The translations under genes were made by a program, and so were the position numbers. Shown here piece by piece: positions 47,271-48,366 of a stretch of DNA of 64,000 nt. This DNA comes from Funiculus sociatus GB2-C1 (GTDB lineage Bacteria; Cyanobacteriota; Cyanobacteriia; Cyanobacteriales; FACHB-T130). The notes beneath the pieces are model-generated. The model was not told where the DNA came from. It made no database searches and saw only the letters and a program-made list of their open reading frames with translations. Location of the stretch: the NCBI RefSeq assembly GCF_039962115.1, contig NZ_JAMPKJ010000010.1, positions 1 to 64,000 on the forward strand, given 5' to 3'. Position 1 is the stretch's first letter. Every line of letters starts with the position of its first letter.

Positions 47271-47341
47271 TGTTATAACCCCTAATCCAACATCTGATAC
47301 CCGCAGCCCCCTTTTTAAGGGGGGCTTCTAAAATTGAAGAG

Positions 47342-47425
47342 TGGGCAGGGAGAGAATCGAACTCTCACAACCTTGCGGTCGTCAGATTTTGAGTCTGATG
47401 CGTCTACCAGTTTCGCCACCCGCCC
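47342..47425 (-). tRNA. tRNA-Leu (CAA)
   Basis: 84 bases. Acceptor stem GGGCGGG / CCTGCCC (one G-U pair), D-loop GGTAGACGC, anticodon loop CTCAAAA giving anticodon CAA, long variable arm (CGACCGCAAGGTTGTG) and TpsiC segment GTTCGATTC. The discriminator is A and CCA is not encoded. The first 22 bases also encode the last codons of the M48 gene upstream. Confidence 0.96.
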
Positions 47426-48279
47426 TTGGGTTTAGCTTTATCATTATAGCCTATTGAATGCTGTTCTAGCAAGTTTTGGTATTCTTGGCTACTTGCCCAG
47501 CGATCAATTTCTCTAGCCCGTAAAACTGGGACTGGGTGGGATAGTTGGGCTGTTTGGGCTGATTTGAGCATTTCACCTAGCTGGTTGTTGCTGATGTCGT
47601 CGTAAGCTTTGGCTTGGGCTAAAAATGCCTCCAGGTTTAGTTGAGGCGCGATCGCGGGTGAACCTCCCGCAAGTTTCATTAAAACGGAACTCACTACTCT
47701 GGGGTTTTGGGTGGCTAGTAGTGCAGCGCGATCGCACGTAAACTCCGCACATCGCAACCACTCCATCATCTGCGATCGCACGCTTTCAGCTACTACACTC
47801 CCCCAAGTGGGAATTAATCCCGCCGCTAACACGATAATATTCAACGGTGTCAGGTAAACCCCATGTTCGCACTTGAGGTGTCCCAATTCATGGGCAATTA
47901 CTGCCTGAATTTCTTCCTGTGTCAGCATATCAATTAACGAGGTATGCAACACGATAAACGGTTGCTTGCCTCGCATGGCAAATGTGTAGGCGTTTGGCGC
48001 TGGATGCTGGCGCACATACAGTTGCGGTGGTTCGAGATCCAGAATCTGGCAAGCTTCTAACAGCAGTTTATGCAGATCCGGCAGCTGTTGAGGCCCGACT
48101 AGCACTCCGGCTGCTATATTTTCTAGGTAAAAAACTTGTTCTGCTAGCGGCCCCAGCAGATTCCGCACTAGCATATCCAACCCAGGCACCTGTTTCAAGG
48201 CTGTGGTTGCCTCCAAATCCAGCGGATGGCGGAACTTGTCTGCGGAAAGACCAATTAACGGTGTCTTTGTTGGCAACAT
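47404..48279 (-). CDS. M48 family zinc metalloprotease
   Basis: About 291 residues from ATG 48279; an open frame to 48366 begins with unrelated-looking sequence. HELGH with downstream FTCDRAALL carries zinc ligands of the HtpX/Ste24-type M48 family. Two hydrophobic segments suggest membrane attachment. It could act in protein quality control. Unusual: the last seven codons (G-G-W-R-N-W-stop) lie entirely inside the tRNA-Leu gene on the same strand, and no earlier stop exists. Confidence 0.9.
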   Translation of the reverse strand: MLPTKTPLIGLSADKFRHPLDLEATTALKQVPGLDMLVRNLLGPLAEQVFYLENIAAGVLVGPQQLPDLHKLLLEACQILDLEPPQLYVRQHPAPNAYTFAMRGKQPFIVLHTSLIDMLTQEEIQAVIAHELGHLKCEHGVYLTPLNIIVLAAGLIPTWGSVVAESVRSQMMEWLRCAEFTCDRAALLATQNPRVVSSVLMKLAGGSPAIAPQLNLEAFLAQAKAYDDISNNQLGEMLKSAQTAQLSHPVPVLRAREIDRWASSQEYQNLLEQHSIGYNDKAKPKGGWRNW

Positions 48280-48366
48280 GGAGACAATCTCAAAAAATAA
48301 GGCTTTTATGTGGTGCTGTTCTGGTTCTTGGCTTTGGTTATTGCCCCTAGAACAGGTAATACTCAA

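Follow-up and report, generated by a model that had tools for sequence, protein, structure and literature searches.

The 5' end of a tRNA-Leu(CAA) gene as the probable source of a selected C-terminal peptide in a cyanobacterial M48 metalloprotease

We analysed a 64,000-nt stretch of the genome of Funiculus sociatus GB2-C1 (contig NZ_JAMPKJ010000010.1, positions 1 to 64,000; hereafter the window), in which an M48 metalloprotease gene runs into a tRNA gene on the same strand. The protease coding sequence lies on the minus strand at 48279..47404 and specifies 291 amino acids from the ATG at 48279; an in-frame TTG occurs further upstream, at 48366. Its 3' end falls inside a tRNA-Leu(CAA) gene, likewise on the minus strand, that both ARAGORN (47425..47341) and Rfam (to 47342) identified. 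This tRNA forms a full cloverleaf with a CAA anticodon (Rfam score of 57.3 bits against a cut-off of 29), and a search of the 6.47-Mb assembly with its DNA returned, at E ≤ 0.001, only the gene itself, a divergent second copy being possible. The two genes share 22 nt (47404..47425, minus strand), over which the 5' strand of the acceptor stem and the start of the D-arm double as the GGWRNW codons and the stop. The protease gene closes with AAG GGC GGG TGG CGA AAC TGG TAG, where the third base of the Lys codon AAG is G1 of the tRNA and the bases from GGC through TAG are tRNA bases 2-22. The C-terminal peptide G-G-W-R-N-W, conserved across orthologues, is thereby encoded at 47407..47424, and the TAG, at 47406-47404 on the minus strand, consists of D-loop bases. 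The initial annotation had proposed that the final codons and sole stop of the protease are built from the first 22 bases of the tRNA, with no in-frame stop ahead of it; the ORF, ARAGORN and Rfam coordinates bear out the former, and the M48 reading frame indeed contains no stop before the D-loop TAG. Elsewhere in the window, Rfam models matched NsiR1 (RF02399; 2210-2261, plus strand; 52.9 bits, cut-off 39) and 6S RNA (RF00013; 27641-27823, minus strand; 98.9 bits). NsiR1 is a nitrogen-stress sRNA of heterocyst-forming cyanobacteria, and Trichocoleus, the genus of a record matching the window, is not known to form heterocysts.

The protein encoded upstream of the tRNA belongs to Pfam family PF01435 (8.3e-20; 71.8 bits against a curated cut-off of 20.3), and the record that matches it at 100% is titled Trichocoleus sp. 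FACHB-40, perhaps the same genome. M48 enzymes bind zinc through an HExxH motif plus a downstream Glu. Both elements, HELGH (H130-H134) and E179, are invariant in the 110 of 148 orthologous proteins that were aligned for residue conservation and for the structure model. At the sequence level, no PDB entry matched at E ≤ 0.001, and the top Foldseek matches in the PDB (Ste24p, HtpX, ZMPSTE24 and BepA) were weak and of M48 type, none of the 71 reaching E ≤ 0.001. Residues 275-291 of the model have pLDDT values below 50, with no secondary structure past residue 275, so that the position of the tail is not confident and the model is uninformative on a binding site; on these grounds, we discarded a structure-based role for the tail. 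The disorder or flexibility predicted for this segment suits a short C-terminal motif for a putative partner.

A search of 40 related genomes returned an M48 match at E ≤ 0.001 in all of them, and in 37 the best match reached residue 291, the last one before the stop. The exceptions were a match ending at residue 274 (G009), a gene in two pieces, the second of which reached residue 291 (G033), and a genome with only a 36% match (G029). A class-wide draw recovered an orthologue at E ≤ 1e-60 in 205 of 291 genomes and none at that threshold in the other 86, while a draw across the phylum yielded matches at E ≤ 1e-35 in 46 of 98 genomes, including seven outside the class (33-40% identity) that all end by residue 274. 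We read 153 loci, 148 of them distinct once five duplicates were removed: 86 share the overlap and its register, 42 carry the tail without an attached tRNA (separated loci) and 20 lack the tail, a ratio that is not a frequency because the genes were picked by hand to spread genera and include odd endings. Overlapping loci span 42 family and 76 genus codes, as against 8 family and 28 genus codes for the separated tail and 11 and 17, respectively, for the tail-less state; five family codes contain both overlapping and separated loci. ARAGORN sized the overlap at 22 nt in 78 of the 86 loci and at 23 nt, through one extra leading base, in the remaining 8. Recurrence of a single register in this many orthologues excludes a chance overlap. 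With regard to the C-termini of homologues and their adjacency to the tRNA, raised in the initial annotation, 20 orthologues lack the tail, and the 86 overlapping ones end inside the tRNA in the same way. Some orthologues end near residue 272. Three from family f43 (L153, L156 and L157) lack GGWRNW and terminate in AWW or GWW, possibly a remodelled aromatic ending.

All 86 overlapping loci use TAG as the stop codon and keep the D-loop register in frame, and their tails vary along with the acceptor stem into GEWRNW (6), GKWRNW (2) and GEWWNW (2). Among loci that also contain the tRNA, a D-loop shorter by one base turned up in 1 of the 22 separated and 6 of the 8 tail-less ones, a pattern consistent with constraint. 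The shared codons sit on tRNA bases that are near-invariant, and the peptide is therefore hardly free to vary in the overlapping state. From the overlapping loci alone, selection on the tail is inseparable from selection on the tRNA.

A second element of the tRNA gene is also embedded in the protease gene. Among promoter-like sites in the scanned region, the best, with 10 of 12 sigma-70-like matches, is TTGCTA-18-TATAAT at 47472..47443 on the minus strand. Its -10 box TATAAT (47443..47448) encodes Tyr-Asn in the protease frame, and the candidate -35 box TTGCTA (47467..47472), set off by an 18-nt spacer, Leu-Leu. From this site, transcription of the tRNA is predicted to start near 47436. That position is near, though not strictly inside, the stretch between 47430 and the tRNA in which, according to the initial annotation, a start would refute its reading. 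A hexamer agreeing with TATAAT at five or more of its six positions was scored as a TATAAT-like box. Of the 86 overlapping loci, 76 have one at 12-25 nt ahead of the tRNA, versus 13% of shuffles; in the separated protease genes, the corresponding stretch has one in 3 of 42, versus 7% of shuffles. In the range of 8-45 nt, a looser test without shuffles of its own, the box was present in all 86 overlapping loci, as compared with 5 of the 42 separated protease genes, none of them exact. The best copy is phased as Tyr-Asn in 83 of the overlapping loci, and so is every one of the 66 exact copies. The Tyr-Asn pair itself appeared at the tested offsets in 63 of the 86 overlapping genes versus none of the 42 separated ones, which indicates that it is kept only as a promoter. 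Within those 63 loci, Tyr is written TAT in 60 and Asn AAT in all 63, against 55% and 65%, respectively, in core codons of the same loci. The -35 box is weaker: among the 76 loci with a -10 box in the narrow range, the best match reached at least four of six positions in 46, as opposed to ~21% of shuffles, and we rejected the idea that it is under constraint equal to that on the -10 box.

The promoter seems to accompany the tRNA wherever the latter lies. Free-standing tRNAs in the loci read carry a -10 box in 29 of 30 cases, distributed among the three phases as 12/11/6; the box is present in all 22 separated tRNAs of the same locus, in all 18 located elsewhere in separated genomes, and in 6 of 8 tRNA-Leu(CAA) genes of tail-less genomes. 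One of the three possible phases of the -10 box places TAA in the protease frame, and in two f52 loci (L162 and L163) the protease stop TAA is indeed the middle of the tRNA -10 box (c-TATAAT), the protein ending before the tRNA. The in-frame -10 box in every overlapping locus indicates separate tRNA transcription, and we infer from these promoter sequences that the main source of the tRNA would be its own embedded promoter rather than co-transcription with the protease.

The separated loci disentangle peptide from tRNA. In 22 of them the tRNA lies 77-1643 nt downstream, and in 20 it is not within the locus; for 19 of these 20, tRNA-Leu(CAA) was identified elsewhere in the genome, and none was found in G311, a genome 72% complete. 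An alpha-hydroxy-acid (lactate/glycolate) oxidase-like gene, named by eye, stands between protease and tRNA in L011 and L036. GGWRNW is kept in 35 of the 42 separated proteases, the seven deviating tails being RGWRNW (two), LGWSNW, GKWRNW, IGWRHW, GSWINW and GSWLNW, and both Trp residues are present in all 42. At the DNA level, these tails use all six Arg, all four Gly and all three stop codons (TAA, TAG and TGA in 21, 15 and 6 loci, respectively); they comprise 39 distinct 21-mers in 42 rows versus 14 in the 86 overlapping rows, and only 4 of the 42 use a 21-mer also present in an overlapping row. Parsimony on the tree, which treats changes as independent, assigned to the separated tails 63 third-position changes in the four degenerate codons versus 15 first- or second-position changes, with none in the Trp codons; 10 amino-acid changes fell in the six tail residues, versus 188 in the eight preceding linker residues. 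Third positions have been recoded while the peptide was kept, and as judged from these substitution patterns the GGWRNW ending is under purifying selection as a peptide once the tRNA has moved away. A search of five genomes with GGN-TGG-MGN-AAY-TGG-stop gave nine matches and showed no second protein with this exact ending. These matches were the M48 tail in all five genomes (in G000 these bases also belong to the tRNA), tRNA-Leu(CAA) genes in G162, G239 and G219 (366791), and a further site in G219 (376069) at which ARAGORN called no tRNA. Overlapping this further site are 40 bases that match tRNA-Leu in its 5' part (G219:C1:376051-376090; L199/L207) and that might be the first exon of a tRNA-Leu gene with an intron.

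On the tree, switching between overlap and separation requires a minimum of 17 changes, a rough figure given that deep branches are weak and 59 of 144 inner branches of the main tree are open; we therefore claim neither dates nor exact counts of gain and loss. Well-supported branches force at least 7 changes of the separated label, a count obtained with 147 rows (86 overlapping, 41 separated and 20 tail-less) in which L099, ending in GKWRNW, was labelled tail-less and the truncated L081 was left out; the later counts of 86, 42 and 20 take L099 as separated and include L081. Separation of the tRNA from the protease gene thus looks repeated, as far as gene arrangements on this tree tell. Tail-less lineages (f6, f43, f49, f52, f54 and part of f58) are nested among tail-bearers, implying that the tail is dispensable there. 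In a subset tree rooted with paralogues, which carried long-branch warnings among the outgroup rows, six tail-less rows (f37, f46, f59, f60 and f61) fell outside a node (support 80) uniting the 44 remaining orthologue rows. In family f46, the tRNA follows the protease gene at distances of 8 and 37 nt, adjacent without overlap.

We consider it probable that the protease captured (exapted) the 5' end of the tRNA as a peptide motif at its C-terminus, where selection now acts on it as protein. That the tail was kept after departure of the tRNA suggests that it became a useful part of the protease. In the simplest story, an ancestral cyanobacterium would have had the M48 gene just upstream of tRNA-Leu(CAA); loss of the protease stop would have let the frame read on through the tRNA promoter and the first 22 bases of the tRNA up to the D-loop TAG. 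The tail would then have gained a use, the tRNA would have separated repeatedly, and the tail would occasionally have been lost. At present, two transcription units would share this DNA. One would produce the tRNA, with a leader of ~10 nt, from the promoter inside the protease gene; the other, starting at an upstream promoter, would produce an M48 mRNA whose translation reaches the TAG either ahead of RNase P cleavage or in its place. Ribosomes would open the tRNA fold while translating this longer transcript, whereas transcripts cut first by RNase P would become nonstop messages and enter ribosome rescue. Nonstop disposal of nearly all M48 transcripts would bar selection on the tail, and a meaningful share is thus presumably translated to the TAG. 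At the end of a flexible linker, GGWRNW may serve as a short motif by which a putative partner recognizes the C-terminus.

The main alternative is the regulated nonstop switch of the initial annotation, in which RNase P would cut a shared transcript at tRNA G1 and remove the stop, ribosomes would stall and tmRNA would tag the protease, so that a transcript would serve either tRNA maturation or protease synthesis. RNase P acts on tRNA 5' ends in general, and the geometry of the locus forces stop removal in any transcript that it cuts. The idea also parallels the model proposed, there as a hypothesis, for selB-selC in the excerpted text of PMC8124441. Nonetheless, we regard such a switch as unlikely: the in-frame promoter points to separate transcription of the tRNA, selection on the tail after separation means that the full-length protein matters, and repeated separation shows that the coupling is not needed. 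Somewhat less likely still is an M48 RNA with two fates, each copy giving either mature tRNA-Leu(CAA) together with a protease that lacks the tail and bears a tmRNA tag, or the complete protease, directed by GGWRNW to a partner or membrane.

Capture of the tRNA end as a selected motif also has to be weighed against a neutral relic, that is, read-through fixed by drift and a tail retained solely because tRNA function fixes its codons. The coincidence of these codons with near-invariant tRNA bases in overlapping loci would fit such a relic, but it is contradicted by the 42 separated loci, where the peptide persists despite thorough reshuffling of third positions and stop codons, and we deem it improbable. 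The recent tRNA-linked accident envisaged in the initial annotation finds no place in a distribution over 42 family and 76 genus codes with a tail under purifying selection after repeated separation, and was rejected. As for an annotation or assembly artefact, with the true M48 end lying earlier (as the orthologues ending near residue 272 might hint) or a base missing here, its probability is negligible and we rejected it, since the same open frame and register recur in 86 distinct loci from 42 family codes, other species included.

Among known systems, integrase genes of the SSV type contain a tRNA-derived att site and in this sense also translate tRNA-derived sequence within a protein; unlike in the M48 case, that fragment serves site-specific integration. 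A same-strand overlap of a coding sequence and a tRNA was thought rare by the initial annotation, and the arrangement is indeed unusual, the bacterial precedent that we found being selB-selC (tRNA-Sec) of Alpha- and Gammaproteobacteria and Nitrospirae, as described in the excerpted text of Mukai 2021 (PMC8124441). According to the same excerpt, the stop lies inside the tRNA in Dyella/Luteibacter, some relatives have lost the overlap via a new stop or a spacer, sometimes with a translated remnant, some remnants are highly degenerate, and nonstop mRNA arising from tRNA processing was hypothesized to repress the protein. As there, same-strand tRNA sequence is translated here in frame as a C-terminal extension, and to the extent that the excerpt describes it, the M48/tRNA-Leu case works like selB-selC, its closest known counterpart. 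It is nevertheless outside that family: the genes are M48 and tRNA-Leu(CAA) rather than selB and tRNA-Sec, the overlap covers 22 nt from the tRNA 5' end with an in-frame embedded promoter, and the peptide is maintained with synonymous recoding after repeated separation, a test of which we saw no counterpart in that excerpt. Mitochondrial overlaps, such as tRNA-Lys inside cox1 of Armadillidium, for which an either-or model was hypothesized (via PMC8124441), likewise have tRNA and protein share bases on one strand, but belong to compact organelle genomes, and the excerpt describes no tRNA-derived peptide kept after separation. None of the matches listed in our search of the open-licence PMC literature (titles and abstract beginnings) reported an M48/tRNA-Leu overlap.

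The M48/tRNA-Leu locus adds to the few bacterial tRNA/protein overlaps found in print. Repeated separation of the two genes makes selection on the tRNA, on its promoter and on the peptide distinguishable, with Tyr-Asn kept as promoter only and GGWRNW as protein. The overlap raises the question of how the ribosome and RNase P share one RNA. If the M48 RNA does have two fates, tRNA maturation, ribosome load and proteolysis would be linked, and the separated lineages would have dropped the switch and kept the motif. Capture of the tRNA end would offer a clear example from nature of a protein motif that came from a noncoding housekeeping gene and later became independent of it.
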